Origin: Protonemura montana
Taxonomy: Eukaryota > Arthropoda > Insecta > Plecoptera > Nemouridae
Length of the DNA stretch: 64,000 nt
Direction of reading: 5' to 3'
NCBI GenBank assembly: GCA_947568835.1
Contig: OX387610.1
Location: 1,242,501-1,306,500, forward strand
Both the position numbers and the translations under genes were made by a program. Each line of letters starts with the position of its first letter. Position 1 is the stretch's first letter. A model generated the notes under the pieces. The model was not told the origin of the DNA, did not search any database, and worked only from the letters and a program-made list of their open reading frames with translations. Shown one piece after another: positions 221 to 61,235 of the stretch.

Positions 221-1079
221 TATGATTTCTATATATATATATATATATATATATTTGTGAACCAGCTCACAAACATTCAAAATGTTTACAAGTCCAAAGG
301 GTAGTACTAGATTCTGCCAACAGGTGGCGCTGATTGCCGCTAACACTAAGTACCTATCGTTCCTATATACTTGATGCTAGACTTAGGAGCTGCACACGGG
401 GTATAGGTGGGGTCTGGGGTCGTGGGAACGGCCCGCAAAACTGGCGGGTGCGACTGGCGCGGAGCGCCAGGAGCGCCCGGCAGTTTTGCTGCTGTCTTAA
501 ACATACGCCCAAAAAAAAAAAGCAAAAGTGTAAAACTGCGCCGAGAAACGGACGTGATTCGAACCCAGTACCTCGCCAATTCTATGATCATGTGATCGAT
601 GAAATCGGTGCCTTAAACCGCACGACCAAGCGAGTATATGATTTCTATATATATATTTATATATATATATATATTTGTGAACCAGCTCACAAACATTCAA
701 AATGTTTACAAGTCCAAAGGGTAGTACTAGATTCTGCCAACAGGTGGCGCTGATTGCCGCTAACACTAAGTACCTATCGTTCCTATATACTTGATGCTAG
801 ACTTAGGAGCTGCACACGGGGTATAGGTGGGGTTTGGGGTCGTGGGAACGGCCCGCAAAACTGGCGGGTGCGACTGGCGCGGAGCGCCAGGAGCGCCCGG
901 CAGTTTTGCTGCTGTCTTTGACATACGCCCAAAAAAAAAAAGAAAAAGTGTGAAACTGCTCCGAGAAACGGACGTGATTCGAACCCAGTACCTCGCCAAT
1001 TCTATAATCATGTGATCGATGAATTCGGTGCCTTTAACCGCACGACCAAGCGAGTATATGATTTTTCTATTTCTTTTCA

Positions 1080-1480
1080 GATATATAAGTCTCTTGACTT
1101 CAACGAACATGGATGAAAAATGCATTCGAGCAGTGAAAAGCTACCTCCGTGAAGTGGGTTCTCATCCTGGTAGCGCATATCTTTGACGCTTAACCTTTCA
1201 CGAATCACGTTCGTTCCACGACGCATTTTCATGCTTCTGCATTTTTTTTGCGTTTGTGTTTGCTTAAGACAGTAGTACAAATGCCGGGCGCTCCTAGCGC
1301 TCCGCGCTAGTCGCGCCCGCCAGTTTTGCGGGCCGTTCCCACGACCCCAAACCTCGACTATACCCCGTCTGCAGCTCCTATGTCTAGCATCAAGTATATA
1401 GGAACGATAGATACTTAGTGTTAGCGGCAATCAGCGCCACCTGTTGGCAGAATCGGGAACTACTGCAAGTCTCTGAGGTA
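1080..1480 (-). repeat. Inverted satellite monomer (first of nine)
   Basis: The reverse-complement version of the GC-rich part of the direct monomer and of its CTCF-like end appears at 1265-1455. It is preceded by a segment absent from the direct monomers (about 1070-1260). That segment is related to the diverged SINE-like sequence at 13384-13560. Together with the direct monomer on its left it makes a large imperfect inverted repeat. Equivalent inverted monomers occur around 2720-3130, 4370-4780, 6020-6430, 7240-7650, 8470-8890, 10120-10530, 11350-11760 and 12580-12990. Confidence 0.85.
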
Positions 1481-18042: not shown

Positions 18043-18136
18043 TTTTATGCTCTAACCTTACTTGACAGTGACATTTAAAAGCGAAGTTGGTTGAGTCAAA
18101 AACGTTGAGTGAGGTTTGAATTGGATGTGATTAAAA
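18043..18136. promoter_or_regulatory. Putative bidirectional promoter of NIPP1 and FARS2
   Basis: Only 94 bases separate the two divergent start codons, so both 5' UTRs and the core promoters must overlap here or extend into the neighbouring gene. I see no clear TATA or CCAAT box, only an AT-rich ATTTAAAAG. Inference from gene layout. Confidence 0.55.
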
Positions 18137-30300: not shown

Positions 30301-33300
30301 TTTCAAAAGAAATAAATATTAAATTACATTCTGTTGTTTGTAAAAAAAGGGGTTACAGGTTTGGGGCTATGAATCTGTCTAATATCACACTGGTTTCAAG
30401 GCTCCAAGACAATGTACTTATCTTAAAGCAACGACTAGATGTAAGAGAAAGTACAAATGTTACATCAAATACTAATAACTACAAAACAAAACAGCCGTAA
30501 CTTCAGTGAGTACCCACCCTGACGATGATGCCCATTCTCTTGGTCTCCGAGGTGAACGGGAAGATCTGCAGCACGGAGTAGGACAGCGTGGTTCCCGCCG
30601 GCGTACGCAGCTGCATGCTGACCAAGTCTCGGTGGACCAACGCCAAGCCAACCTCTTCCGTCCACCGAACCAGTGCTACCTGCAATGCAACGCTTTGTTT
30701 AACTTCAAGACAAAAATTGCTAATCTCCAGTGACGTAGTGGTCAATGCATGCGGGCGTAGTTTGAATTCCAGTTAATCCCAGTTTGAAATAGTTCATTTG
30801 TTAGCTCTCCTTGCTTATCAACCTCTCGACAGCATGGATTTGAGGAGGAATCCTGTTGTTCGTGTTTACCCCCCCTTGGAAGTCCCCTTAGACCCAGGGA
30901 TTTACCAGCTTAAACTGGTGGTCACCTTGGTGCTCTTCAACAGGAGTAGGCTACATGCCCCAGGTTTCCCCTCCTTTCTTCTAGGCTAGGTTAGGTTCAT
31001 CATCACCCACTCATTCACCGAAGCCATTAGACCAGAGCCACATGGCTTGTTGCCAATACAGTGCACAGTTAAACACAACAAATCAAAAAGAAATTTGAAC
31101 TACGACCCTACCTCGTCGGGGCTGGCCGCCTGGTAGGTGCATGTTGTTCCCTCGGCATAGTGCTGGTCAGCCTCAGTCTGACTCTCCGCCGAGACGGGAC
31201 TCTCCCCACCCTCAGCCCCCTCCGCCCCCTTGCGGGCCTCGTAGACTGGGGTCACGTTGTGGCATAGAGCCAGCGCCTGCGGAGCAAAGAGATTCCATCG
31301 TCTCTGTTGTTTTACAATCGCAGTCGAGATGAACTGGCAAGTTGGCTCGCTTTCAAACAGCGATTGGCACAAACCAACTGTATTAGGATTCACGCCGGGT
31401 CACGGCTTACGAACAATAATTTTTGTCAAGCACACATTTTTTAAGTAATTCACGCTTTGGTTCTTTAAGGAGCAAAACCTATACAATATAAACACGTTGG
31501 TCTTGTTGTCGCCTTGAAGCTTCGAGAGAAGTGCCCGAGATCTCATGAAGCTCACCTTGACCGCCTCCATCACGCGAGTGACCTCCGAGCGGCGCATACG
31601 AGGCCCTGACAGCGTCAGCGCCCGGGCAGGCGACTCCTCGACCGATGCTTCACCAGGCGTAGTCGAGAAGGCGCTCGCAATGTGCTTGCCGATCTCCTCG
31701 AAAGTCTCCGTGCCGTAGGAAACAGTGCCCAGATGCAACTTCTTGAACACCTGGGGACATATGAATGATTGACATTTAGGTCACTAGATGCTTTCAAGAT
31801 GTTCAAACTGTTATTGTAAATTCGACAAAGTTAAGCCTTTTGCAATTGAATGAACCTGCAAAACTGAAGAGATTGATTTTTATTATGACTTTCGCTTGGT
31901 TTTTTAAGATGACATGGAATATTAGTATAGCTATGAAGGATCGGTCACCACTTATAACTTAAAGATACAATAGCTCCACTCAAAGCTGTCTTGCAAAGTT
32001 GATGCAACACGTTGATGATTACGCTTAGTCTTTTTCAAACTGTTTTAATATTTGTTAATTTTTTCCTCGCACAAGCAAATAGCCAACGTGGGCCACATAC
32101 ACATTTAAACATTGATAGCAACTAGATTTGTTTATTAAACTAGATTGATAGCTCTATATTTTGTTGTAAGTTGCAGTCAAGTTTTAAAACAAAGACATCA
32201 GAATGAGTAAAAATCTTTACGATTTTTGAACTCATGTCTTCTTCATCTAACCTTAGCACTAGTTTTGACAAATAATATTTAAACTGGATTTTGAACGCTT
32301 AGTAAAGAAGAACTGCATATCCCAACGTTTCGTAACATCTAACATTAAACTAGCATTAAAAAATGTTTAATTTAGATTCAAAACCCATTTTAAAGAGTTT
32401 TTGTCGAATAAAAACCCATTTGATTTGACTTGAGTTTTATTAGACATGTCTCTGTTTTGCTTTGGTATGGTCTATGGTCTACTCACCATCTCGTTCTGTG
32501 TTAGCGTCCCAGTCTTATCACAGAGAAGATATGAGATGCGTCCGAGTTCCTCTGGGATGGTGGTCGAACGTACAACCGTACCCTCCATCTCCTTGTCCCG
32601 CTGAATCGACCACGAGTAGAACGCTTTGCCCATGTCCAGGTTTACTCGTAAGCTGTGGCAAACAAACGTTGCCAGTTAAATACCGCTGTAGTGGCAGAAA
32701 AAACTCATGTATCTAATTCTTGTGAAGCTATTGTAGTCTGTGATGATGAGTTGTCAAGTTACTTATTGCCACGTCGATGCATGACTTGATTAGTAAGTAG
32801 ATCTGAAACAAAATACCTTCGTTGCAAATATTTTCATCAAAACATCCCTAACAAAGGCGGCTCCTCAAAATGTAAAAATTCTCGGAAATTCTCGAAATTT
32901 CTCGGCAACTCCACCACCCAGCTGCAATTTTCTTCTCTGATAACTTGTGCTCATTTTTCTCTTTCAATCTTCACCACAACAAACAAACAAACATCGGATA
33001 TGTTTGGAAACGACAGAAGAATCACGCGTTTTAAGTTTGTGATGGCCGAATGAACATTTTCCAGACAAAAATGACTCTGGACATCAGGCACCTAGGTAGC
33101 GATCACTAACTTTATCTCGGTAAATTCCAGGGTTAATAACCGAACGGTTAGGCAAAAAGTTAAGCAACACTGCGCTGGGTCAGGTATTGGATGGGTGACC
33201 ATCATACACATGACCAGTTCTGTTTGGGAGAGAGGTTGGAGGGATGAAAGTTAAGCAACACTGTGCTGGGTCAGGTATTGGATGGGTGACTATCATACAC

Positions 33301-36300
33301 ATGACCAGTTCTGTTCGGGAGAGAGGTTGGAGGGATGAAAGTTAAGCAACACTGCGCTGGGTCAGGTATTGGATGGGTGACCATCATACACATGACCAGT
33401 TCTGTTCGGGAGAGAGGTTGGAGGGATGAAAGTTAAGCAACACTGCGCTGGGTCAGGTATTGGATGGGTGACCATCATACACATGACCAGTTCTGTTCGG
33501 GAGAGAGGTTGGAGGGATGAAAGTTAAGCAACACTGCGCTGGGTCAGGTATTGGATGGGTGACCATCATACACATGACCAGTTCTGTTTGGGAGAGAGGT
33601 TGGAGGGATGAAAGTTAGTACAGCAACTTCACTCGCCTTGCTTATCAACCTCTCAACAGCATGGATCTGTGGAGGAATCCTGTGTAAATCCAAGGAGTTG
33701 CTCACCTGATCGGGATGATGTATGAGAAGAGCAGAACGAAGCGGAACATGTATCGATACCACGGCCCACTGAATCCTTTCAGACACATCATGACCAGCGC
33801 CAGCCCGATAACTGCGCCAAACAAAACCTGCGCAAGCAGACATCACAATACCGTCAGCACTGATTACAAATACCAAGCAAATTAAAGAGAAATAAAAACT
33901 GATGAAATGTTTGGCAGTCAACATAGTTGTAAAATTTCATAAAGTGTTTTTGGCATTTATAACATTTTCAAACATTTGCAAATATCTAAAAAAAAAAACT
34001 ATTCAGCTAATTGTTTTTTACAACGTAACAGATCTAAGGTCAGAGATATTTAATGTCTGAAAATGCCGTTTGGCAAACAAATACACACAAAAAAATAGGA
34101 CAGATTTTTTTTGGGTGAGTCAAATCGTGTTTTCCCTGCGCTTATTCAAAACTAACAAATAAATTGCAAAAAACCAGCAGTATTTGCTATGATTTTTACC
34201 TTCATTAACCTTTGCACTGATTTTGAAAAAAAATGTTTACAGCTTGGGTTTTCAATGCAAAGTAAAACAACAAAAAACAGCAGCATTAGCAACAGCAACA
34301 TTAGCACTACATACCCGACGTTTCGTAACTTTCTAATTACTTATTTCAGTATTTCTAAGTTTTTTCCGCTGCTAAACGTGATCTAACGTGACCCACCTTT
34401 GTCAGCTGATTGATCTCCATGTCCAGCAAGCCAACCTTGCTGCGCGGCGCCGAGTTGTTCATAACACTCCGAGTCTCTGCACCGGTGTAGACCACTGCGC
34501 CGAGAGCCGTGCCGGAAGCCACCACACAGTTGGCCCAAAGCGTGTTCTCAACGTCCAGGCTGTCCTCCGACCCAAATCCATCGTGCTGCCGGGAAAATTA
34601 ATGGTTTAAAACCAAACAGTTTGGCGTGTTGGAAACACTGGTCCTTGTGAGATCACCGAAGTTAAGCAACACTGCGCTGGGTCAGGTATTGGATGGTTGA
34701 CCATCACACACATGACCAGTTCTGTTCGGGAGAGAGGTTGGAGGGATGAAAGTTAAGCAACACTGTGCTGGGTCAGGTATTGGATGGGTGACCATCATAC
34801 ACATGACCAGTTCTGTTCGGGAGAGAGGTTGGAGGGATGAAAGTTAAGCAACACTGCGCTGGGTCAGGTATTGGATGGGTGACCATCATACACATGACCA
34901 GTTCTGTTCGGGAGAGAGGTTGGAGGGATGAAAGTTAAGCAACATTGAGCTGAATCAGGTATTGGATTGGTAACCGTCATACACATGACCAGTTCTGTTC
35001 GGGAGAGAGGTTGGAGGGATGAAAGTTAAGTAACACTGCGCTGGGTCAGGTATTGGATGAGTGACCATCATACACATGACCAGTTCTGTTTGGGAGAGAG
35101 GTTGGAGGGATGAAAGTTAAGCAACATTGCGCTCGGTCAGGTATTGGCAAATTAATGTACAAATGCAAATGTACCCAAAGTTCAAAATAAATAAATAAAA
35201 CATTTTTTATTATTATTTTCCAAAGAAAAACCTACAATTTGCTTATTGATTACAGGTGGCAGAAAAAAAACTAAGGGCCGGTTTTATGTTGGTCCGTTAA
35301 GAACCTAACAGTCTGTCAGTCAGTGTAAATCGCTTAAATAATTTTATAATAGAGATTACTAGGTTAGACAGATATTATATGTTAGACCGCTATAGATGAT
35401 AATGCATACACATTAAAAAATTTACTACAACAGCTAATAAAATACAAATCAATCTTAAGTCAAGTGGCTCACCCTGGTGAAAGTGCCGATGAAAGAGTGA
35501 ATATCTCGCTGCGGTTTCTCCACAAACAGCGACGCCTTGATGTCGAACAAATGGGCGTCGGTCTCCAGCTTCTGCGTCGCTGGGACGGCAAGTCGGAGCT
35601 TCCAGTCCGTCTCTCCGTCCAGCTGATCTGTACGCACAAAACACGCTCCCGAACGTTCCGTTGTTCGGAGCAGGACTAGATCGGCCGGCACTCGTTGGTC
35701 TTTGCACACTATCACCTGCAGGCAACGAGAGGAATAGTCTTAAAGATCTGCACACAGTTGACACAGCAATAAGCACAAGCATAGCACACAAGGATCTTAA
35801 AACTTGGTTATCATATGGGACTGCACACAATTGACATAGCAATAAGCACAAGCATAGCACACAAGGATCTTAAAACTTGGTTATCATATGGGACTGCACA
35901 CAATTGACATAGCAATAAGCACAAGCATAGCACACAAGGATCTTAAAACTTGGTTATCATATGGGACTGCACACAATTGACATAGCAATAAGCACAAGCA
36001 TAGCACACAAGGATCTTAAAACTTGGTTATCATATGGGACTGTACACAATTGACATAGCAATAAGCACAAGCATAGCACACAAGGATCTTAAAACTTGGT
36101 TATCATATGGGACTGCACACAATTGACATAGCAATAAGCACAAGCATAGCACACAAGGATCTTAAAACTTGGTTATCATATGGGACTGCACACAATTGAC
36201 ATAGCAATAAGCACAAGCATAGCACACAAGGATCTTAAAACTTGGTTATCATATGGGACTGCACACAATTGACATAGCAATAAGCACAAGCATAGCACAC

Positions 36301-39745: not shown

Positions 39746-43331
<3,586 letters not shown>

Positions 43332-43672: not shown

Positions 43673-44914
43673 GTAGCAATGCAGGGGACAGTCATTGTGC
43701 TGGTATCTTCTCTCACGGGCTAGACTGTAGCAATGCAGGGGCCAGTCCTTGTGCTGGTATCTTCTCTCGCGGGCTAGACTGTAGCAATGCAGGGGACAGT
43801 CCTTGTGCTGGTATCTTCTCTCACAGGCTAGACTGTAGCAATGCAGGGACAGTCCCTGTGCTGGTATCTTCTCTCACGGGCTAGACTGTAGCAATGCAGG
43901 GACAGTCCCTGTGCTGGTATCTTCTCTCACGGGCTAGACTGTAGCAATGCAGGGGACAGTCCTTGTGCTGGTATCTTCTCTCACGGGCTAGACTGTAGCA
44001 ATGCAGGGGACAGTCCTTGTGCTGGTATCTTCTCTCACGGGCTAGACTGTAGCAATGCAGGGGACAGTCCTTGTGCTGGTATCTTCTCTCACGGGCTAGA
44101 CTGTAGCAATGCAGGGGCCAGTCCTTGTGCTGGTATCTTCTCTCGCGGGCTAGACTGTAGCATTGCAGGGGACAGTCCTTGTGCTGGTATCTTCTCTCAC
44201 AGGCTAGACTGTAGCAATGCAGGGACAGTCCCTGTGCTGGTATCTTCTCTCACGGGCTAGACTGTAGCAATGCAGGGGACAGTCCTTGTGCTGGTATCTT
44301 CTCTCACGGGCTAGACTGTAGCAATGCAGGGGCCAGTCCTTGTGCTGGTATCTTCTCTCGCGGGCTAGACTGTAGCATTGCAGGGGACAGTCCTTGTGCT
44401 GGTATCTTCTCTCACAGGCTAGACTGTAGCAATGCAGGGACAGTCCCTGTGCTGGTATCTTCTCTCACGGGCTAGACTGTAGCAATGCAGGGGACAGTCC
44501 TTGTGCTGGTATCTTCTCTCACAGGCTAGACTGTAGCAATGCAGGGGACAGTCCTTGTGCTGGTATCTTCTCTCACCGGCTAGACTGTAGCAATGCAGGG
44601 GACAGTCCTTGTGCTGGTATCTTCTCTCACGGGCTGGACTGTAGCAATGCTGGGGACAGTCCTTGTGCTGGTATCTTCTCTCACGGGCTAGACTGTAGCA
44701 ATGCAGGGGACAGTCCTTGTGCTGGTATCTTCTCTCACAGGCTAGACTGTAGCAATGCAGGGGACAGTCCTTGTGCTGGTATCTTCTCTCACCGGCTAGA
44801 CTGTAGCAATGCAGGGGACAGTCCTTGTGCTGGTATCTTCTCTCACGGGCTGGACTGTAGCAATGCTGGGGACAGTCCTTGTGCTGGTATCTTCTCTCAC
44901 GGGCTAGACTGTAG
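43673..44914. repeat. 54-bp tandem repeat downstream of HS3ST, about 23 copies
   Basis: Unit starts GACTGTAGCAATGCAGGGGA and contains GTGCTGGTATCTTCTCTC, period 54 (53 in copies with one G fewer). Variants recur in blocks, so groups of several units were duplicated together. It begins about 340 bp after the HS3ST stop codon, and AATAAA at 44949 follows it. The repeat may therefore be inside a long 3' UTR, but that is not established. Confidence 0.93.
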
Positions 44915-47900
44915 AATTCATAGAGCAGTCAAAATCCTTAACTCTCGGAATAAATGCGACACAGAATTTGTTTATAATCTTAATGGCGTGAGCCAATATT
45001 TAAAGTCGGTTTGGTTTTTCGCAAGATGGATTTGTTCAGAGATTGTGTTACGTTCTCGGTGCAGTATTGGAAAGTTGACGGTCTATTTTCTTGCCAAAAG
45101 ACAATCTTGTAGAAGATGGAAATTCTCCAGAAAATCCAGAACTGGGTGCCTAAATACACTAAAAAGGATGCGTATTATCGAATGTACAAAATGCAAGGAA
45201 TTGTGGTGTCGACGATGAATTACAAGGATGCGCCTACGTGTCAACTTTCCAATCAGTATCGTCGGAGTGAGTTTATCGAAAAGTTGAACTAGTTTGTCAT
45301 GTTACCTTCTAGATCTGGTCTAGATGGAAAATAATGGCATTGCTCAAGGGGAACCCAATGTACTCAAGCATGACGAACAATCATTTGAACGCAAACTGTT
45401 GCGGCGGCTTTTGCATTCGTGACTGTCGTTGACTATGTCAAATAACTAAAAATGCCAACTAAACAAAGTTACCATAGAGATTTTAGATATTTATGTCCTA
45501 GACATATGATATTATGAATAAGTATTACGCTAAACGCTAATAGCATGTACTTGCACTACGTACAGATAACTAGAATTGTAGGTAAGTGAACTGAAAATAT
45601 GAACAGAGCTTTTCAAATATTAGTTGGCTGATATTTGGATGTTAGGAACATATTTCTGCCGAGTACAAAAATCAAGTTATCGAAACGGGCTAAAGATTCT
45701 TATTCTTGAGTGCCATTATTAAAATATCACATTAAACCAACCTCATGAAATGTACTTATCAGAAATTTGTGCCATTGCAAGGTTGATTTCAATTGGGACT
45801 TGAAGTTGAAATTGATCCCCAATTGTTATTACTGAAGGTAATTCAGCTTGGTCGACAGAAATAACTGAAAACCAAGTTCCTACTAAGATTTTAAAGATAG
45901 CATCGTAGAAGAAAGACTAGGTTAGCTAAAATTCTAGCGTTGATGGAAGGAGAGAAGCTTGCAAATATCTGTTCTGGGTAATGTATTGCTGTAAACCGCT
46001 CTGGACACAGGCGTCGAGTTTGCTTGTAATGCTTTGGAAATCATGCAAGCAATTCGAAATCAGAACCTATGCTGATGCACAGAGTGATCACCACTCTGTA
46101 CTTAAAAAAATCAGGATAAGTCAGAAAGAAATAAAGAAATCAGGATCAGGAAAGCTTCTCTCCATACACCACCGCTAATCTCATTTTTCTCCTACGATTG
46201 CAGGTTATAATTCTAGTGATGACGGCAATATCTCATTTTAATAAATCCCATGCCAATTTTGAAAATAAAAGTCAACTAGAAAGTCAAAGTTCCATTGTGC
46301 CGTAGTTACAATAATTAGGTCTGATTCATTGCGCCTTATCGAAGTACGTATTGACTGCCAATTTTAGTAACAAGTCGTAACAGTCCAAAAAAAAATATGG
46401 AAAATCACAAAAAAAAAATTAGTGAGGTTATAAATAAATGTCCATTGAAGAATAGACTGGCAGTTGATTCAATGCAATATTAGTTTGTAAGACTGTGGCA
46501 GTTAGAGACATACGTCCATAGCTTTAGCTATTGCTAGCAGCTTGTAAAACCTAGGAAATAATATGGTATTTTACATAAACGTTGTTGAACTGAAAGCGAT
46601 ACGTTATTGTGCCAACTAACTAGATAGAACCAGATTGGGTTTGATACCATTGAATTGTCGAAGACTAAATCGATTGCGTTGTGATTTGCTAATAAGTCTC
46701 GATTTAACCGTTGAATGTTCTACAGCTGTGAATTGTGAATCGAATGCGATGTGCTTAAAGTTTTATAAAATTTATACGCTCGTGTAATTACTAGGAAACC
46801 ATCGACGCATGTTCCTCCGCTTTTTGTAGTATGTATTTGTGCGGCTATAGTTTTACCCACGTTTATTTATTGACTAATTTATTGCTTAGGTCCACGTGAA
46901 ACGTGCTACGTAAAATTGACTGCTGTTGTTGGTTATTGTTGTACTCGTGTTAAAAGAGTTGTGTGATGTGGTTGCTCGGTATTTCAGGAAAGTTAGAAGT
47001 AGCAGTAGAGATTTTGTGGGTCGATTTCACTCTACCAAACGACGTTTAGGGGACATTTTTACCGGCAAAGTAATTTGTTCAAAACATTGATACTGCGTTA
47101 CAAACCAAGAATTGTAAGGTACACAAGAAGAATGTGTATAATAATGTCGTTGATTCGAAACAAAAATATCGTGACAAAAATACTAACAAAACTATACTTG
47201 GTCTGACCCGTGGTTTTAACGTTAAAACCCCGTCCTTCGAGATCAAATGTTTAACGACGATTTGGGTCGAGAGAAAATAGTGACGGCTACCAAATAAAAT
47301 TTCTTCGATTTTACGGAAACGACGTTCTTAAATTATCAATGTATTCAAAAATAAATTTGTGTCTCTGTGTGATTATCTATACATCCTCTTTAAAATCTAC
47401 CAAAAACTTGGCTAAACGGGAAAAATTGATTGGTCCCTGTCAACCTACCTTAAATTGAACAGCGTCGGTGAAATCGGCCCAATGCGTCCAGCTAAGAAAC
47501 CTACTGGTCTAAAAGTTCAAACATTTTCAATGTAGCCAGATACAATTGTAGTACTCAAATTATCCGTCAATCTTCGTCGTCAGATATTACCGTTCGAGTA
47601 TCGGGTACTTTCGCAAACTTCGTGTTACGTTACTTATGTGATGTCTATGCTATGTCGTGATTTAATCAGTTACCAAAATCCAATAATGAACACATTTAAA
47701 ATTGTTGTTGATTTGTTATCCTAATTTATTGGTTATGTGCATTACCTTGTTGCTAATTACACAGATTACCGTGATATTTTGTAATTAATGAAATCAGAAA
47801 CAAATCAGCAGAAAAACCTACCGGTCTTTGGTACCTGTTAGTACCGATTAAATCTTGTGTTTCTGATTTCATTAAAGTAGTAAGTAAGCCAGTAGTCAAT

Positions 47901-48874: not shown

Positions 48875-51800
48875 TCACGATTCGTTTCCGTGACCGTATT
48901 CCGTGAGATCGGCGGGAAGTTGGACGGCATCGAGACGAAGAAAGGAAACGGTTCCGCCGCGGACGATCGCGAACAGTAGCGGCACTCGATCAGGATATCG
49001 TTTTCCCAGAATTAAGAAGTCGCTGGCTCTAGGTAAGCGATCTTCAGGTCTGGAGGCATAGATAATAATTCTAGTAATAAGAGATTTATTTCCAACACGT
49101 ACCTTCAATAATTTCAGTGTTGGTTTTTCCAACTGATAGTTTTGTCTCCCAGATATATGTGTTGGTTAATTAGGAAAACTGTGAGCAAGTAGTGAGGGGT
49201 TGACGTAAGAGCTCACATTTTGCAACAAGTGAGACAGATATGAATTGCACGTTCCGCTCAAATTTGACGGAGATACAGTTGACAAAGAGCATATAATGCT
49301 AGAAGCCTAGCTCCTTAAAACATAACCTTAAGATACATTTGATCTTTATTTGCTAGCATCGCAAATTGTTACGATTCTTAACCAACTAGCATTTTATTGG
49401 GTTCATTAGGAAACAGACTAATCTAAAAAATTACGCAAAAAACCTTTAACTTTTCATCCTCAATGAATTTGAACTTTTCATCTAGTAATCATTTTTTGAA
49501 TCTATTTTGTTTTGCTATCGTTTTTATTCAGTTGTATACCTGAGCACGATGATCCTGTAGTCTGGTTTTCCGGGATTGGATTTCCGGAAAGGTGTGTTAC
49601 TTGCCATCATCGGCAGGTAAAGATCGTAGCTGATTTTGAATGAAGTACCGTCTGCCGCCAGCTCAGCAGTAGCAGACCCAATTATGCCCAGCTTGGAGAT
49701 CACTGATGCTGTGAAGATGTCATTAAAGAATATTGTTTTTAGACTCATGTATACTTTAACTAAACTTAGCACTAGTTTTGGCAAAAACTATTTGAATTGG
49801 GTTTTGAATGCTCGGTAAAGAACAACTAAATCCCCCAAAGTGTTGTATCTTTAATTTAGATGCATTTAGGAAGCTTGAACTTGGTAATTGTTATAATTTT
49901 ATGTGGTTATTTTGTTATCGGAAAATTGTCAGGACTGCTCTTACCCTTGATAAAGTAACTAGTATATGTTACGAAACGTCGGGAAATTCAGTTGTTCTTC
50001 ACTTAGCATTCAAAACCTAGTTTAAAAAGGAAATTTCCAAGTAATTGAAGAAATTACAGGTTTTACGTGAAATCTTATTTAAATTGCAATGCAATAAAAT
50101 CCTCTCAAAACTTGTACATCCAAGTAGCTTAATTGATTAGATCAACACCTCGCGACAGGTGGAGATTAAGATTCAAGTCCCCGTTTGGACATCAACTTTT
50201 GAGAGGTTATTAGTAAAATTCTTATAATAAAAACAATAACTTGATAACGCAGTGATTACCATAATCTGTGCAGTCTGAAGGTTTGATCAACGGCTCAACA
50301 ACCTCCTCTTCGCTGGAGCTCTGCTGGCAAGAGCTATCCCGAGATTCTACTTCGCCTTCCATCTCCTGGAGAGCTGCCTCTTTTTGGACAGCGTCCGTTG
50401 TCGCTGCACCGACTTCAATCAGGTGTTCGATTTCACAGAATCTCTCGTCTTGGGTTGCAGCAAACCGGAACAAATCCACGTCTTCCGCGATGAAAGCTTC
50501 GCCGTTCCTCATTCTTTCTTTAGCTCGTTTCCAAACCTCGGCCTGTTCTTCGGAGAGCGTCATCCAAGCCATAATTTCAACTACTTGCGCGTTTAACTGT
50601 TTAGTACTGACGGGAAGATTATTATCGTGCGAACTGGAAGTAGAGACGGTGTCTTTACCGGAGTCCACCTCGGGACTCGATTCACTCGGCGATTTCAAAT
50701 TCGTTTCCTCGGCGCTTTCTTCAGTCTCTCCGCTGCTTTCTTCGGCCGACTGCTCATTGTTTTCAGGTATTTCAACGTTACTGCTAATGATATTTCTCTG
50801 ACTATTCTGTAAAATAAACTCCCTTTCATTTATAGATTCCTTTAACAACTCTGAAAATTCAATTTTTTTTTCCGATACACTGAAGTAGTTGGCCCAATCG
50901 ATTAGTATATCCACTTCGTTCGATTGTTGCTGGTCTGTGCCGAGGATAGACTTCACAACCCGCGTGATCATTTCGCAAACGCACTCCAGTAAGCGCAGTT
51001 CCGATTGGCTGGGAGGTCTGCTCACCAAACTCTTGCATCGGACTGCTTTTCCCAAAAATCTTAATTTAGCATTGCTAAAAGTATTTAACCAAGGACACAT
51101 CGCTACTAGGCTTGGTAATTGATTTCGCCATTGGGCGTCGGGGGCATTTGATCCATGAACAAATGGTCTTATTAAGTTATTTCCCATGTATGCCCTATTT
51201 ACCATTAACGGAAGGACAAAATACAATCTTCGATCGTTTGATTGGGCATAATTCAGGGTATTATAGTCGCCTACACTTAAAGGATCACCGTTTTCAAGTT
51301 GCTTTTTAGTACGACTCCACTCGATGGCAACCGGCGGCTGAAAGCGAACCCACTCTTCAATCTTTGCTGCGAGTGTTTTCAAATCGACAATGCCAAAGTT
51401 GTCGTCGCTGGCACCTGCTTCGCCTGCTCTTTCAAAGTAGGAAAGCTCGTCTGTATCGTTATCGATAACGGAGACTTCTGTAGCCGCGTTAGCATCACTA
51501 GCGGCTTGAACGTTCAAATTTAACAAACACTCATCTCTCCAACTTTCTAAAGAATCAGTTATTTTGGAATACGAGTAGCACACGACTTTGACGCACGTGA
51601 TCAACTCATTCACTAGGTCCAAGGGTAACGGATTCCTCTTGAGAACACTCCTAGCGTAGGCACTGATCTCTTTTCCCACGTAGCGCAGAACCTTCAGTTG
51701 GGGTTTCAACAACGCTACGCCACGCGCTTTCATTTGAAGACCGCTTCGCAAGTTGACGATTTGTAAAGGAGTCAGTTTCACCAACGGTGGACAAATGCTT

Positions 51801-54800
51801 ATCATGTGTGCCACTTGTTTTAAAATGTTTTCAGCCACGACTGAATTTGTCCCCAGGGTTTCGTCCTTGACTTGAGTAAGCGATCCGTGGTTCGCTGTTA
51901 GGTTCCAAGAAGCAACAATCTTGGAAACGTTTGCTGTCATCCCCTTCAGCCACGGAAATGCGTATTCGAAGAACTTGAAAGCTTTTCGGGTGGTTTTTTC
52001 AAACTTTTTTTTCCGCAGCATTTTCGTCCACTCAAACCGCAGCATCGATCTTTTGTTTTCTTTCGCTTGCGGACACGAGTCGAGAACTTTCTTCAACGTG
52101 TAGTTCCCCACCGCAACTTCTTCGTCGGCAACGTTGTTAGGAACTCGATTGAAAGCGGCGGAGCTCGCCTCCTCCTTGACCAATGGCAACGAAATCGAAG
52201 TCACCGGAACTTCATCCTTCATCTTTCGCATCACTCCCGGCACCCACGGTTCCGGCTTCACCGGCGGCGGCAACTCAACGCGGATCGCGTTCGGTTCATT
52301 GAACACGTTGTTCTGCTGGAACCAGCCTTGAGCCGCGGGACCGCCCCGCACCTGGCGGTCGAATGATTGCGGCCGTGCAACCTTGGTCACGCCACGGATC
52401 GTTCGGTTCTGCATGCGCGGCGTGTAAACCACGTGCAGTAGCGGAGCACAGTGCCGTGGCGGGGCAAAGCTTCCCGGGATCGCGTAGCCCATGTTGTTGG
52501 GGGCTATGAACGCAGACGAAGGCTGTTGCCATGGCGACGGCGGCGGCGGGTTGTGCACTGTCAGCTGGTAGTTGGGGAGGAAGTTATGTGGGCCGACTTG
52601 GACCCACGGGCTCGTCAGCTGCGAAGGGTGACCAAGTAGAGGGGGCGGGGCGACCTGCACGTCAAACAGGGAAGGCACTGACGGCGGTAACTCGACGATC
52701 CTGCCGCGAGCTTCGATCACTTTGTGGGCGGGAACGTAATCGACGCTGGGCTTGCCGCCGATGCCGATAGCGTTCAGTCGGAAGACTTTGACGCGTTTAT
52801 CGATCGGGTTGCAGTTGGCCGGGACGTATCGGCAGTCGGCCGACAGGTCGATCTGCGTCTTGTTGGCCACGTTGACGATCGATCGCAGGATCGTCGTCCG
52901 GTCTTGATCCTCGAGCAGCGCGGGATCCCAGTACTTCTTCCGTCGCGGCTCGGTTACGTTGATTGCCGACGAACCGCTGTCGACCGACATTACGTCGGTC
53001 TCCGCTTGGTTCAGATCTTCCGTCTCGTTGTCGCTGCTCTCCGTCTCCTCGTCGGAAAGGTTGACGACTTCGATCACCGGGCGGCGCTTCACGTTGCGCA
53101 CCTCGTCGTCCGTTTGCTTCCGTTTGTTCGACACGGTCACCGACAAAACCTCGACGTCGCCGATCTCAATGATTTCCAAATCGGAATCGTACTCGTTTAT
53201 CCCGCCTAGCGATTCCAATTCTTCACGATTACTTTCGATGTTCAAGAAATCATCGTCTTCAGACGACGAGCCGGAATGGTCGCGGCACTCTGCAGGTTCT
53301 TGGCCGAGGCTCACGGTCGAACCGCTTTCCGTATCACTCTCCGATTCCGCACTCACTCCGTTGACCAGAGGCTCTTTCGAAGTACCGGCAACCGTCAAGT
53401 CCGGATGAGATTTCTCGCCATCGTGCACCGTACGACCCTCGTTGTCAATTCCTTCTTGATCTGAACGCAATCTCTTACTCCCCCCGACTTCTTCGGCCGT
53501 TTCCGCACGACGCTTCCCGTACGACGTTTCGACGGGTTCCGGGACGTCTACGAGGACCGGGCACATGTTCTGACGGACGACCACGTTGAAGCCGGGCGCA
53601 AGTTTGCGGAAGTCGTCCTCGTCGCTGAACTCATCTTCGGTCTCGTACGCGTTGACCTCCGCGAGACTGTTCAGCACGGTCTCCGAAGCATCGATCCCGG
53701 ACACGCCGATGAAATCAGCCTCCGAGCGAGAGGACATCGGACTGATGTCCTCTCGCTGCTTCGGGCTCGGACAAATCTCCGCGAGGAATGCGTTCAGATC
53801 GGAGAACATGCAAGCGTCCTCGCTTTCCGCAACGTCGTCTTTTTCAGATCTGTCGATTTCTTTTTTTTCCATTGGAATGATTTCTGGGGGATTAACGTCT
53901 GCGTTGCTTTGCACTTTGTCCGTGTCGGGCCTGGAAATAACTGTTGCCGGCTCGATGACAATCTGCGGACAAATCTCTGCCAAATATTTCGGAGAAGGTG
54001 TTTTGACAACTTCGTCCATCTGTAAAAAATCACTCTGAGATTTCTGTTTCGAAACGATTTTATCTAGAAACCCGTCGTCGGCGTTTTCTTTCGCCTCTAG
54101 CGTGACGCCTATGATTTCTCTGTCGTCATCAATGACAATCGAGGAGCTCTCATTGACGGCAGAAACGTCGCTTCCATCCGCTGCCGTCCATTCGTCCAGC
54201 ACAACAAACTCGTTGGGGAACTTCTCGAGCCCGACTTCTTCTGTCGGCGATTCGTTCCTCGAAGAACTTCTCGATGCACTTCTTACCGTTGTTTCCAGCT
54301 GGGACCGGCAGGCTACCGGTAAAACTATCTCTTCTTGAGGCGAAGAATCGGTTCTAGCTTCAACATCGTCTTCCATGAGAGTTACTGGCATTCGGTCTAC
54401 TCGAGTCACGTCCCTCTCTTTGATCATACATTTTCTCGATGGTTTCGCGGAACATTGTTCAAGTCTAGAAAATCAAAATAAGATGGTATTTAGTAATTGA
54501 AGATGTGAAATCTGATTTAAAATGCAAATGTTTGCAGGGGACAAAGTATTTTATTATGAGGAACTCTAAGAACCTCTAAAACCCTGGCACAAATTCCTTA
54601 AGTTGGGTCTAAAGCTGGGCAACCCAACCAATTCGACGTACATATGGCTGCAATTTTGCAGGTAGAACATGGGAAGATTAACCTCAAACTTATATTCAAA
54701 TGAATCTTAACTTTTAGGTGAAATATTGATTGAGTTTATACAACTGTCATTAGTTTTGATCGTTCTGGAGTCGGTTTTAGAGGTTTTACGGTAATAGCTC

Positions 54801-57800
54801 TTTTTTAAAAGGGGTTTCGATCTACAAAAATAACAATTACCGTAAAACCACTAAAAGCACTCACCAACGACTCTCAAATCCTCAGCAGAAAAATTCTGGA
54901 ATTAAGAAAAACTATTTGAACTGGGTTTTGAATGCTAAGTAAAGGGCTACTAAATTGCCCGACATTTCGTAACATATACTAGTTACTTCTTCAAGGGTAA
55001 GAGACGTTGGGAAATTTAGTAGCCCTTTACTTAGCATTCAAAACCCATTTCAAATAGTTTTTGTTAAAACTAGTGCTGAGGATTAATCAAGTAGACATGA
55101 GTCTAAAAACCATCATAATTCTGGAATTAGTTTATCTGTACTCGTACTTAATGCTGACATTCACTTTGGTATAGAATGTCACTTTATGCGATCGAATTTG
55201 TTGCATTCTGTTGGTGAACGGGCAAGGTTTGCGGGGAAACGTGCCTGGAATTACGCTGATCAGCGCTTCACAGCACAAGCTATCTCGAGAAGTGCCCACG
55301 CGATTGCCTAGGCTGTGGTTTGACTTTTGAAAGATAAAGGGAATAACATTTTAGGTGTAAAGGTCTAATTTGCAACGGCGTGGTATCTGGGGCTGTCTAA
55401 GATGGAGACTTCACAAGGACTTGCTGGGTGGTAGAGATGGGACCGTTCAATTGATTTGTGGTGTTTAACGACGCACTGTTTTGACAACTGCCCTTGCTGC
55501 ACTGGTCTAATGGTGTTGGTGAATGAGAGGTCGATGATGAACCTAACCTAGCCTAGAAGGGAGGAGGGGAAACCCGGTGCCGGCACGTAGCCTACTCCTG
55601 TCGAAGACCAAGGGGACCACCGACTTAACGTTCCTTCCGAAGGACGGTACAACGCGAACAACAGGATTCCTCCACAAATCCATGCTATCGAGAGGTTGAC
55701 AAGCAAGGCGAGTGAAGTTGCCGAACTAACTTTCATCCCTCCAACCTCTCTCCCGAACAGAACTGGTCATGTGTATGATGGTCACACATCCAATACCTGA
55801 CCCTGCGCAGTGTTGCTTAACTTTCATCCCTCCAACCTCTCTCCCGAACAGAACTGGTCATGTGTATGATGGTCACTCATCCAATACCTGACTCAGCGCA
55901 GTGTTGCTCAACTTCTATGATCTAACGAGAACCGGCGTTTCCAACACGACAAACCGTTCGGTACAAAATCAAAATAAGACAGTATGTTTAAATAGATAAT
56001 AAAGAAAATTCCCTACTCAGAGCAAACATTAGGCCATAGATAAAAAATAAATAAAAAACACATAATAGAGCATAGGTTCCATCCAGATGATCAAAATTGA
56101 AGTTATTTAAAAAAAAACTTATTTAAATTCTAAATGCTTGCAATGCGCGGCGTATTTTATAGTGTTCTTAATAATAATAATTGAAGTTAGTCACAGAGGT
56201 CGGCAATCCATTGTTAGCAACAGGTAGGAGTCCCTAAATCCAAGGGGTCCCTGTGATCCCAATGCTATTTTCAAAGTGTATTATGCATGTCTTCAACCAA
56301 CTTTGACATTCTAGTGAAGAAATTACCTAAACCACGAAAACAACTGATGAAATCACTTATAATCAGAGAGAGAGAGAGAGAGAACTCTTAATCAGGGACG
56401 CTCAAGGAGGCAGTCGGTGAATGGTAACCGTTATCCAGGTTATTTGAGATAAGTGCCTAGTGCTGAGTTGCCATTTAACCATTCAGATTGCTGGCAATTT
56501 CGCAATTGAAACTCAAGTTGGTTACCATAAAACTTAAATACAGATTTTATTTGGACTCTATGACGTTTATTGCGTGTAAATCACAAGTTTCGTTAAAGAA
56601 AATAGTCAACTAACTAGCAACTAGCCTGCCACTCTGACAGTCAACAGATGATTGACAAATCGCAGGCTAGAATTATGCTAAGCATGGCACATGGACACAT
56701 TGATAATGGTCTTTGTTGATAATGTCACTCTGTGATGTCACTGTCACTTGTTATTTAACCTACCTGTTGCCATCCTGATTTTCCTCCCAGAAAATGTAAC
56801 TAACTTGGATGGAAACACGAAATGTTCCTGATTTGGAAACAATAAACAGTAAGTTCTTAAACAGCAACTACCAATGCAGCATGACTCGTGTGAGATCGTG
56901 GAAGTAAGGTTAGAGTCGCAAAAACTAGGCACTACGGTTATATTAGGCCAGGCAGAAATCACTAGAGAAGTCATATAAATTGCTGTCCTCCCTTAATTTG
57001 TATCATAAGTGAGAGTAGCTAAGCCTTGTAGTACAATTATAACACAAATACTGCGCCTTCCTTGTATGCTGCAATGCAAACTTCTTATTCAAGAGCTTTT
57101 TACTTGTGGGTTCACTTAAAGTTGCAATTGAAAATAGATGTGACAAAACATAATATGCATCCTGTTTTTCTTTTCTAGGGTGAGAGTAGAAGAAGAATTA
57201 TAATTTTTAGCCTGGAAGATTTCCTGAAAAAGCCTCAAATGCTAATAACGCTGACAACATTTTTCAATGTCACGGATAATTTTTGCAAACGGACTAAGCA
57301 GTGCTCTAATTGCCCGAAATGCTTGAAGCTTGGTGTTGGCAATGCACTTCGTTGTTTTGAAAACCAAGCGTCATCGAGTTACGCCAGCGTTAGGATGTAA
57401 GGAAGTTAGGATGAGTTCCTAACACTGAGTTACACCGGCAACTCCATCTACGAAGCAAAATTACACATACTGAGATTACATTCTTTGCGCTTCCAACTCA
57501 TAAAGCACATTTCCCTGATAAGTTCAATGATAGTATATTTAAAAAAATAAAATAAAAAAAATCCATCAACAAGTGTATCCCCAAAATTGTTATTTCCTTA
57601 TGTAACGTCATACATTTGACGATTTATGAAAAAATAAACACTTAAAATATCATCATTTGAGCAAAAACAACCAGCTGCGGTCTAAATACCGTTATATGGC
57701 GCACACAAATGTTAATTTCCTTTCAAAGTTGCACAGCCAATGTCTTTTGCTCACATAACCTTCGAAAAATTAGAGCGAACATTGGTCAGGGGTCAGTATT

Positions 57801-60800
57801 TCACTTCCAGAAGAGCAAAATTGGAATTCTCGAAAAGTGCCATTCCCACTCTAGAGCTGACTGGATCTGCAAGGGTCCACAATATCGTCAGTTCTGTTTA
57901 CAGCTGATCTCGCAAAGTATGCTAACGTGGGTAGTCTAACTCTGTATGCAGACGACACTACGCAACTGATCACAGATGCATCATCAAACAAATCGGACGC
58001 AGAACAGCAAATATGCCTCGGTCAATGTAGCTCAATAGCAGTGCAGCAAATGCAAGACTACTGTGCAGATGAGGGCCTTTTCCTCAACAAGAAAATGACA
58101 GTAATTATGCACTTCAAACCACTCTGTCACATACACAACAACAGCCCACTGATTAGAATTGACAAGAAGGGCAACCCTTTTGAACGTAAATAGGTTTCCT
58201 TCCTGGCAGTCGAGCTGGAAAAAACGCTCAAATGGAAGACGTTTACCGATACTCTATGCAAGGAAATTGCTTCCGATTTCCTCTCAGAAACATTCTCAGA
58301 AATAACAAGGAAGTAACAAGCCCTGAAGGAGTCAGGCTGCTTTACTTTTTGCAAATTGAATCCAAATTACGTTACGGTATCACACTTTGAGGAAACTCAC
58401 ATCATGCACGCCATGTTTTCAAAAAGCAAAAAGCAACCCCTGCGCAGAGGTCTACATAAAAGACTCCTGCAAACCGCTCTTCGGGAAATTTAAAATGCTC
58501 ACGCTACCATGCTTATACATCTAATGCAGCATCGTGTATATCAAAGATAACCCAAAGCTGCTAACTACAAACAGGACCTATCAACCAGACGACACCAATG
58601 GTAGAAACGAGCCCTGTCTTCAACTAAACAAAAGAGAAATCTTCAAAACGAATCCCATCTACGCCGGTTCAAAACTTGACCAAGGCAATTAAAGAAAAGG
58701 AAGGTAGCGCTTTTAAATCTAACCTCAAGCAATATCTGATAGCGTAGCAGCAAAGGAATGTTTTAGTTTGATAAGCTTCTTCCCTGTGACTTTTCTTTCA
58801 GATTGTAAAGATCGGCTTGTTTGATTTTTAATATCTGGACTACAGAGGTTGTAAATCTGTGATGAAAAGTATCTTAAATTAGGGACAATCACCATATTAC
58901 GATGGTAATAAAAATCTAAAAAATCTATTATTATTGTGCTCAGTCCACTATCCCATAATCGGTGGCAAAGTGTTTTCTCTAAGTAGGGAATTTCCTCTCT
59001 TATCTATTTACATGTACTATTATCGTAGTTTGATTTTATGACACTTATGAGACCGCTGAGGCCTCCTTTTGCCCGGTCTGCCCAGGAAAGTAATGCCAGA
59101 GCATTTCAAATTCCAAGATTTCTTTGCGGTATATTAGCCACGAGACTTTTCCTAATTTGTCAAAGAATGCAGGATATTTTTTCAGCCATGCCCCACATTA
59201 TTATTGATCATCAAAACTAATAAAACAAATATTAATATTAACCAATACAGTAAAATTGACCAGAAAGTTTGATTTCTACAGAAGATTTACAGACATTTTC
59301 AATGTTTACATCAAAATATTCTGAGGCTGAAATTTACAGAAATTGATCTTGGGCAAAATGTTTAGTAATAAATTGAATGCTTTTTTTCAGTGAACCAATG
59401 GTACAAAAAGAAGTTTGATGATTGGGTGGGATTTTTTTGCAGTAAGATGAGATGAGATAAAAATTATTTTCCAGTGCTTGCAACGACAATACCAAAGAAG
59501 GACTCGTATGTTATCTCACTTCACTGCAGAAAGTTACAGAATTACAGAATTCAAGCAGAGTCATTCCCTAATATTGACCCCATTAAAATTAGAGAGGAAT
59601 ACTAAAATTGTGCTTGGGATGTCCTAGTAAATGTAGCTGCCCTGGGAATGTGGCACGATTAAATCTACATCCTTTATCTCACCATTCCTTTGCCTTTATT
59701 AAGGTAGATAAGACATTATTATTTGCCGATTGCCTCCTGACCACCAATGTGATGTAAGACAGGCCATGATGATGATTTTTTTTTAATTACTAGATTTATA
59801 TTTCAAGTGGTATAACCGAACGGTTTGGCGTTTTGGAAACACCAGTTCTCATGAGATCACGAAAGTTAATCAGCACTGCGCTGGGTCAGGTATTGGATGG
59901 GTGTCCATCATACACATGATCAGTTCTGTTCAGGAGAGAGGTTGGAGGGATGAAAGTTAGTACAGCAACTTCACTCGCCTTGCTTATCAACCTCTCGACA
60001 ACATGGATTTGTGGAGGAATCCTGTTGTTCGCGTTGTACCGTCTTTCGGAAGGGACGTTAAGCCCTTGGTCCCCTTGATCTTCGACAGGAGTAGGCTACG
60101 TGCCGGCCCTGGGTTTCCCCTCCTTCCTTCTAGACTAGGTTAGGTTCATCAATACCCACTCATACACCAACGCTATAAAACCAGTGCCACATGTTCAGAT
60201 GTCAAAACAGTGTCTTGTTAAACCCCCATTAAAATACATCAAGTGGTAAAACAATGAATTATTCAATCTCAGCTTTATGTTCTTACCGTATGTCCAGTTC
60301 ATATTGCGTTGGACAAGGCTTGTGGCGCAGTATTCTGTAACCGAGATGGCTTAGATGCTTGTAGACTGTGTACTCAATGTCTTGACAGCCCATTTCATCG
60401 CCCAAGAGCATCACATATCCTTGTTGAATGCTCACTGTTACTCCACCATACAACAATTCAGCACGACCCTGACAATTAAGAAAGAAAACAATATATTTTA
60501 AAATTCAACGGTTGCCATCATATTATTGTCAAATTATGTACCTATTAAGATCACAGTACAAACACAAAAATAATCAGACAAGTAGAAATTCACTCTTTGA
60601 TTACCCTATTAAACAAATGGTTGACTAACCAGTTCTAAGAGTAGCAGAATCTCTTCTGGATAAAGCCAGAGTCTTGCATTTTCTTCATGTCCCATGACAT
60701 CGAAATGACCGCTTGCTCTCCGAGTGACTAGAGCTAATTTCCGGTCAGCATTCCATTCCGCACCAATCAAGAATGACCTAAAACAAAGAGATAAATCTAA

Positions 60801-61235
60801 GATGAAATTGTTCCTAGATATTTGCTTTGCTATGTTTCTTAATTATTTTTTCTACAGTAGTTAAACAAGTAATAGGTAGATAGATACTTACAATTTGTCA
60901 ACCTTGGCAACTGCCAGCATTGCGGCTTGTCGTTTCAGAGCATCCTCAATTTGTTTCGTTTCAGTCACCGAATTTGAAGGCTGAAACTCTTTGAGTCCAG
61001 TGACTGGTAGAGTGTGGCTGCAATTTGGTGCATCCTTCATTATCTCACTTGCTCTGAAACAACCTAATCTTAATATTTTCCTTGCAACAACAAAACATGC
61101 ATGACAGTACAAGCAAAGAATTTTAACCAGTATAAGTATCCTAAATTCAACGACTCTAGGTTATGTTACTCTGTTTAGAGAACAAAACTTCTGCACTCAC
61201 GGTAGGTTTTGTGATTGCAGGTCGCAAATATCCAT
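48875..61235 (-). CDS. TSEN54: tRNA-splicing endonuclease subunit Sen54, greatly enlarged
   Basis: Seven exons, minus strand: 61235-61201, 61053-60892, 60777-60630, 60468-60287, 54464-50260, 49708-49540, 49049-48875. All phases agree and the product is 1691 aa; human is 526. Exons 1-4 (residues 1-175) match the Sen54 N-terminal domain: GAEWNADRKLALV, RLWLYPEEILLLLELGRAEL, IEYTVYKHLSHLGYRILRHKP. Exons 6-7 (about 1578-1691) match the C-terminal domain: SYDLYLPMMASNTPFRKSNP, GKPDYRIIVLR, RVPLLFAIVRGGTVSFLRL. Between them exon 5 adds about 1400 residues: an acidic Ser/Glu-rich half with basic patches, a Pro-rich stretch, then a helix-rich half with internal repeats. Sen54 is a structural subunit of the nuclear tRNA intron endonuclease. 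Exon 5 is 4205 nt (not a multiple of 3), so skipping it would put the C-terminal domain out of frame. The exon is GC-richer than its flanks. Confidence 0.88.
49735..50025. repeat. Fold-back MITE-like element in TSEN54 intron 5
   Basis: Starts GTTTTTAGACTCATGTATAC, carries TTAGCACTAGTTTTGGC and GGGTTTTGAATGCTCGG, and returns inverted through CTAGTATATGTTACGAAACG and CTTAGCATTCAAAACC. About 26 bp separate it from exon 6. Confidence 0.75.
50096..50206 (+). repeat. Fold-back element with tRNA-like core, most complete copy
   Basis: The ends are inverted repeats: CCTCTCAAAACTTG on the left and CATCAACTTTTGAGAGG on the right. Between them lie an A box (TAGCTTAATTGATTAGATCA) and a B box (GATTCAAGTCC). 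This shows that the tRNA-like sequence seen in tandem at 23661 is normally carried inside a terminal inverted repeat. Confidence 0.75.
54904..55110. mobile_element. Palindromic MITE-like element (TSEN54 intron 4)
   Basis: The left half (AAACTATTTGAACTGGG, ATGCTAAGTAAAGGGCTACT) is repeated in reverse complement on the right (AGTAGCCCTTTACTTAGCAT, CCCATTTCAAATAGTTTTTG). A short centre contains TTCGTAACATATACTAG. The right end reads GACATGAGTCTAAAAAC. The left outer end is missing. Confidence 0.85.
55462..55958 (-). repeat. 5S-derived SINE, minus strand, two 91-bp units
   Basis: Reverse complement of the element at 59811-60240 with the 5S-like core present twice. The head is at the right end near 55950 and the 3' part runs left to about 55462. 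Lies in TSEN54 intron 4. Confidence 0.85.
57179..57400 (+). other. Unassigned open frame behind a splice-acceptor-like site
   Basis: A pyrimidine tract ending TTTTCTTTTCTAG at 57178 is followed by 73 open codons ending in TAA. The peptide has a Cys-rich stretch (FCKRTKQCSNCPKCLKLG). No start codon at the front and no partner exon found. It lies inside TSEN54 intron 4 on the opposite strand. It could be a chance frame or an exon of an unrecognised transcript. Confidence 0.2.
57900..58745 (+). mobile_element. Decayed LINE reverse-transcriptase remnant
   Basis: The frame reads DLAKYANVGSLTLYADDT, the palm motif YADD with its usual lead-in. It continues through LNKKMTVIM, and after frame breaks AVELEKTLKWK. 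A final segment ends SAFKSNLKQYLIA and a stop near 58745. Several stops and frameshifts show it is inactive. It is a non-LTR type remnant within TSEN54 intron 4, in antisense to TSEN54. Confidence 0.75.
59811..60240 (+). repeat. 5S-rRNA-derived SINE, most complete single copy
   Basis: The head has TTGGAAACACCAGTTCTCAT, GAGATCACGAAAGTTAA and GGTATTGGATGGGTG, corresponding to the 5S rRNA internal promoter region. Next comes a unique body (GTGGAGGAATCCTGTTGTTC) and a tail with GACTAGGTTAGGTTCATCA. The single 5S-like core shows what the element looked like before the 91-bp expansions at 33131 and 34608. Lies in TSEN54 intron 4. Confidence 0.85.

Follow-up and report, generated by a model that had tools for sequence, protein, structure and literature searches.

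Within a 64,000-nucleotide (nt) stretch of the plecopteran Protonemura montana (GenBank assembly GCA_947568835.1, contig OX387610.1, positions 1,242,501 to 1,306,500 of the forward strand; hereafter the window, numbered from its first base), a gene for the tRNA-splicing endonuclease subunit TSEN54 (Sen54) carries one exon of unusual size. We consider it fairly probable that this gene, the only TSEN54 detected in the genome, encodes a subunit whose linker has expanded, within that one exon, to roughly 1,400 residues and may serve as a docking arm outside catalysis. The arm is a large variant of a linker that TSEN54 already has. TSEN54 is described as a small essential scaffold, the knock-out of which is lethal in zebrafish and whose mutants are severely affected in flies (PMC8935212). 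A linker of this size is not mentioned among the titles and abstract openings listed in our literature searches, which does not prove its absence from print.

Gene model and identity of TSEN54

The gene lies on the minus strand and consists of seven exons encoding 1,691 residues, with GT..AG borders at all six introns (Table 1). Exon 5 takes up the two spare nucleotides of exon 4 and gives one to exon 6, so that the frame is kept, while splicing exon 4 straight to exon 6 results in a frameshift with stops. An earlier sequence-only reading had described a TSEN54 carrying a middle of some 1,400 residues from a single exon and had pointed out that a direct 4-6 join shifts the frame; both statements held, the ends being homologous to TSEN54, the exon open and the phases compatible.

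Exon 5 contains no stop in its own frame, whereas its five other frames contain 68, 81, 59, 35 and 28. Among 300 first-order Markov copies read in six frames, no open reading frame (ORF) exceeded 386 amino acids (aa), compared to 1,401 codons in exon 5. Its stop-to-stop ORF (54472-50222) starts 8 nt before the acceptor and ends, stop codon included, 38 nt past the donor. The DNA of exon 5 is single-copy in the genome (258,480,905 bases in 34 contigs).

By every sequence feature tested the protein is TSEN54. The Pfam domain PF12928 in exon 3 was matched with E 5.1e-10 (39.7 bits against a curated cut-off of 24), and the joined protein matched human TSEN54 in four PDB sequences (E 3.7e-25 to 6.9e-25), with N- and C-terminal parts both aligned in the two alignments displayed. 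The same search gave one EndA-like protein (E 0.031). In the alignment with human TSEN54 (7uxa), the N-terminal part aligned with human residues 30-186 (domain E 2.6e-17) and the C-terminal domain was matched with a domain E of 2.9e-4. With the flanking linker included in the C-terminal query the value was 7.5e-6, the next unrelated matches standing at 0.23 and 0.5.

Genome-wide, PF12928 gave a single match at E <= 0.001, which is the present gene. PF01974, the type found in TSEN2 and TSEN34, scored above cut-off at two places on one contig (C1) and below it at one place on another (C4), and Sen15 had one match above cut-off (27.3 bits versus 22, E 8.3e-4). With these matches in the genome, TSEN54 has a normal setting, with no second copy detected. 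At the two C1 places stop-to-stop ORFs reach no more than 262 and 230 aa, so no giant exon is apparent there.

Table 1. Parts of the TSEN54 gene and of its expanded linker, in window coordinates
Feature	Position	Strand	Remarks
Exon 1	61201..61235	-	ATG, 11 codons + 2 nt; donor GTGAGT; phase suits exon 2; start codon inferred
Exon 2, N-terminal extension	60892..61053	-	Alignment of the joined protein with human TSEN54 starts at human residue 30
Exon 3	60630..60777	-	PF12928 (tRNA_int_end_N2)
Exon 4, end of N-terminal domain	60287..60468	-	2 nt left over; gene model and human alignment
Exon 5, giant exon, expanded linker	50260..54464	-	4,205 nt; residues 177-1577 of 1691
Acidic, Ser-rich part, residues 177-679	52955..54463	-	Each of the five leading 100-codon blocks (residues 177-676) has 20-30 D/E; no Pfam match at E <= 10
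Pro-rich stretch, residues 781-944	52160..52651	-	Three psi-K-x-E matches
Presumed helix-rich part, residues 945-1400	50792..52159	-	Single-sequence model unreliable, mean pLDDT 37.7
Repeat copy A, residues 1196-1262	51206..51406	-	
Repeat copy B, residues 1456-1525	50417..50626	-	Modelled four-helix domain
Weak in-frame internal donor	54428..54429	-	GT from 54429, 35 nt into exon 5; would give 301-aa TSEN54
Candidate in-frame internal acceptor	50632..50633	-	First exonic base 50633; would give 414-aa TSEN54
Exon 6, C-terminal domain	49540..49708	-	Takes 1 nt from exon 5; gene model, human alignment
Exon 7, C-terminal domain and stop	48875..49049	-	Gene model, human alignment

Composition and internal duplication of the linker

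The linker is not uniform along its length. The acidic part is followed by a proline-rich stretch (20 and 12 Pro per 100 residues in the blocks spanning approximately 777-976) and by a part richer in hydrophobic residues (41-50 per 100 in exon 5 codons 801-1200), and the final 200 residues are acidic again, with 21 and 26 D/E per 100. The acidic part is presumably disordered, and residues 945-1400 would be expected to form helices, the single-sequence model of these 456 residues being unusable (mean predicted local distance difference test, pLDDT, in Table 1). Searches of the whole exon 5 ORF gave no match in Pfam, PHROGs or NCBIfam at E <= 1, nor in the PDB sequences at E <= 1, and the helical part had none in the PDB at E <= 10. 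Six in-frame segments of exon 5, searched against Pfam at E <= 10, gave PF05055 (E 0.062) and PF06945 (E 1.4), sub-threshold hits that were taken as chance.

Separately, exon 5 contains six Cys-Pro dipeptides among its 23 cysteines versus 1.4 expected, a count reached by 32 of 20000 local shuffles for a dipeptide chosen after looking and one of 400. They are located at TSEN54 residues 341, 407, 477, 973, 1067 and 1299, two of them inside an exact LAEICP repeat. Heme regulatory motifs have Cys-Pro as their core.

Two segments of the linker, A and B, are copies of a unit of 65-70 residues that was duplicated within the exon long ago, and both have been kept as protein. Their alignment scores 72, while shuffled sequences score 22.7 +- 4.2 and none of 1000 reached 72. 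Over the 66 aligned codons covered by the selection test, the two copies share 19 amino acids, and they match 29, 35 and 19 times at the first, second and third codon positions, a pattern that by itself leans to positions 1 and 2 because the codons were aligned by protein. A neutral control was therefore used as well, in which random mutation brought unit A down to the DNA identity of the pair (0.419); again none of 1000 reached 72 (mean 23, maximum 59). Since neutral drift to this identity never gave such a score, the two copies have been retained as protein.

From a two-sequence alignment, unit B was modelled as four helices with a mean pLDDT of 74.4 (core blocks 75-91) and a predicted template modelling score of 0.60. 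Comparison of this model with the PDB gave no trusted structural match, and the A/B profile had one PDB match, at E 2. The unit is probably helical, a putative four-helix domain for which neither Pfam nor the PDB gave a recognisable counterpart.

Repeats other than A/B are not established. An initial self-scan of the helical part gave a score of 41, which was reached by 31 of 300 shuffles. Among the six pairs of candidate units A to D, AB alone is strong; CD is weak (19/1000 shuffles), and the scores of AC, AD, BC and BD were reached by 875, 990, 737 and 921 of 1000. A profile of A and B run on the whole protein matches A and B and nothing else, and comparison of the profile with three other parts of exon 5 was negative. 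A colinear unit-1/unit-2 alignment was equalled by 102 of 1000 shuffles, the A0 pairs by 746 and 853, and self-BLAST returned no output.

Origin and splicing of exon 5

Growth of a pre-existing linker, with internal duplication, appears to fit exon 5 better than the arrival of a foreign module. This preference is based on two points: human TSEN54 has a linker, short and poorly ordered, at the same place, and the exon 5-6 junction aligns with it. In 7uxa the N-terminal block ends at residue 186 and the C-terminal match with linker in the query starts at 404, leaving about 217 residues between the matched blocks, compared to approximately 1,390 here. The junction is colinear with the end of the human linker and the C-terminal domain (VVEPLIKPSD.. 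/ PVTPLLSPGQ..), although the similarity is weak (E 7.5e-6, as above).

We regard it as quite unlikely that a separate module or gene was instead captured into TSEN54 by fusion or exon shuffling. Protein-level searches of the insect's own genome, made with the helical part, found no donor or paralogue of it, and there is no DNA copy of the exon. The genome search with unit B recovered the 30%-identical unit A (E 0.336), so that it sees copies at least that distant. Capture would account for the odd codon usage and base composition of exon 5, yet the guanine-plus-cytosine (GC) content shifts gradually across blocks with no step. It would also agree with the presence of one foldback repeat family on both sides of the exon, in introns 4 and 5 and in opposite orientation. 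However, flanking copies mean little because the family is very common, with 3783 first-look candidates genome-wide, of which 40 were scored; transposon capture was rejected on this ground. Of the sequence-only reading's proposal that an expansion or fusion placed a new acidic and helical module in the subunit, the TSEN54 gene, the in-frame coding exon, the acidic half and a stretch containing a duplicated unit, probably helical, stand, whereas the newness of the module fits less well with the linker already present in human TSEN54, the aligned junction and the failure to find a donor of the helical part or a DNA copy.

Several observations weigh against the reading of exon 5 as a grown linker that docks partners. 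Synonymous codon usage shows no correlation between exon 5 and the remaining TSEN54 exons (r 0.04, from a small sample), and two wrong frames of the exon gave r values of 0.31 and 0.20. Fourfold-site GC forms a hump at 52000-53900, with 0.53, 0.72, 0.81, 0.70, 0.55, 0.46 and 0.51 in successive 200-codon blocks. The GC content at third codon positions is 0.58 overall, versus 0.38-0.57 in the other exons. The collections searched, none of which is a set of animal genomes, yielded no homologue of exon 5. In close-match searches, 28 stretches of a collection of genome contigs (no animal genome set) and six of viral contigs fit the pattern, as did two viral stretches for the helical end alone, and none of these was confirmed. 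Motifs resembling those for interaction with the small ubiquitin-like modifier (SUMO) are not enriched, with four found versus 2.3 expected and 395 of 2000 local shuffles reaching four. The GC pattern may stem from mixed origins, or from mutation or gene conversion acting locally within so long an exon.

A role of the linker as a SUMO hub was considered and rejected. In addition to the SUMO-interaction-like motifs, the psi-K-x-E total is near expectation (four versus 3.1; reached by 732/2000 local shuffles), and the cluster of three within 45 residues, reached by 23 of 2000, was chosen after looking.

The sequence-only reading also held that exon 5 is required for a full Sen54 protein. This was too strong, as in-frame internal splice sites could bypass most of the exon. 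Splice sites were scored with textbook frequency matrices. The best internal acceptor, at 50633, scores 4.1 and is in frame with exon 4, its tract being ..ccgtctctacttccag; the model acceptors of exons 2 to 7 score -1.5, 7.6, 7.2, 6.6, 2.9 and 4.7. Its use would splice exon 4 onto the final 374 nt of exon 5, so that a short linker made up of unit B is kept. Two internal donors whose phase suits exon 6 are found at 50658 (score 1.8) and 54429 (0.9), versus 1.1-4.9 for the model donors, and the 54429 form, with the first 35 nt of exon 5 joined to exon 6, has no internal stop. By sequence these sites are candidates. Alternative splicing could in that case yield two proteins, of which a short form (414 or 301 aa) would do the splicing and the long form would be separate or minor. 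That 50633 tops the internal acceptors and retains unit B is in keeping with this, as is the similarity of both donors to several model donors that are about as weak (1.1, 1.2, 1.6). Nevertheless, 65 of 500 synonymous codon shuffles contain an in-frame acceptor as good as 50633, exon 5's own model acceptor is higher at 6.6, and the matrices are textbook frequencies, and we consider the two-protein explanation unlikely.

Exon 5 could also be a gene of its own, intronless and lying inside an intron of TSEN54, its splice sites being accidental, which we hold to be highly improbable. In favour of this are an in-frame Met at codon 13 and a stop just after the donor. However, the limits of the ORF adjoin splice sites on both sides, the phases fit, the direct 4-6 join fails, and the first poly(A)-like hexamer below 54464 is an ATTAAA at 49855, inside intron 5. 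Introns 4 and 5 were scanned for another exon that would join the N- and C-terminal domains without exon 5, a prospect already raised by the sequence-only reading. One weak frame-bridging cassette was found in intron 4 (55597-55548, scores 3.2 and 1.5, within a repeat) at the lowest thresholds of 2.9/1.1, but none at 4.7/1.6 or higher, and none in intron 5 at any threshold tried. On the grown-linker reading, the long form would presumably be transcribed.

Other repetitive elements are found in the introns and elsewhere in the window. The foldback repeats flanking exon 5 occupy 49732-50029 (intron 5) and 54902-55119 (intron 4), with more copies near 22256, 32223 and 36717. Sequences resembling 5S rRNA are located within dispersed repeats at 34611-34731 and 59815-59935 on the plus strand and at 55842-55962 on the minus strand, and these repeats are probably 5S-derived short interspersed nuclear elements; tandem units of about 91 bp occur at 33156-33683 and 34659-35147. 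A tRNA-like sequence (Rfam, 23966-24038) lies in 23707-24061 after five partial copies spaced by 52 bp, and a related copy is present in intron 5 (50119-50214). An open frame in intron 4 (57861-58193) has a YADDT reverse-transcriptase-like motif, recognised by eye, and is likely a fragment of a long interspersed nuclear element. At 334-12932 repeated units form an array, many of them at a spacing of about 1.65 kb, with recurring ORFs on both strands. Minisatellites at 27272-28660, 42177-42993 and 43881-44928 lack stops in at least one frame and so appear as repetitive ORFs. Open frames at 18131-20012 resemble mitochondrial phenylalanyl-tRNA synthetase, again as recognised by eye.

Comparison with known proteins and possible role of the arm

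Human TSEN54 (7uxa, 8iss, 8hmy, 7zrz) has the same order of N-terminal extension and domain, linker and C-terminal domain. It differs in the length of the linker, as given above, and in gene structure, the human transcript comprising 11 exons with a coding sequence of 1581 bp (PMC5204098) versus seven coding exons and 5,076 nt here. Disordered segments and regions without density are mentioned for the human subunits in PMC10539383. The 7zrz chain is 293 aa long and its C-terminal domain is matched at 207-291 instead of 440-525; therefore, this structure used a TSEN54 without most of the linker. This suggests a linker that the folded core can do without.

A similar layout is seen in Big tau, where a conserved protein gains a disordered and highly acidic stretch from one large exon, MAPT exon 4a (PMC12896622). 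Big tau differs in that the addition is about 250 residues and the protein is cytoskeletal, and the relation would be one of analogy, the resemblance being in layout.

The arm is most likely a flexible one bearing small partner-binding helical domains, judging from composition, the unit B model and analogy. The two ends of the protein, from their homology, would fold to the usual TSEN54 core and hold TSEN34, TSEN2 and TSEN15. The linker would loop out from this core as a long arm composed of the acidic, presumably disordered part, the Pro-rich stretch and the duplicated part with its putative four-helix units. The arm may also be folded beyond unit B. The arm may then dock other nuclear proteins to the tRNA-splicing endonuclease while taking no part in catalysis. 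It is also conceivable, though distinctly improbable, that the arm is switchable, the internal splice sites toggling between a subunit of canonical size and a 1,691-aa scaffold whose four-helix domains recruit a nuclear partner. If that were true, tRNA splicing would be tied to another pathway in this lineage.

The single-exon layout would make the arm easy to delete and test. If the lineage keeps a domain-bearing arm of 1,400 residues, this would mark a link from tRNA splicing to something else. If the arm is merely a drifting linker, it would show how much an essential RNA-processing subunit tolerates.

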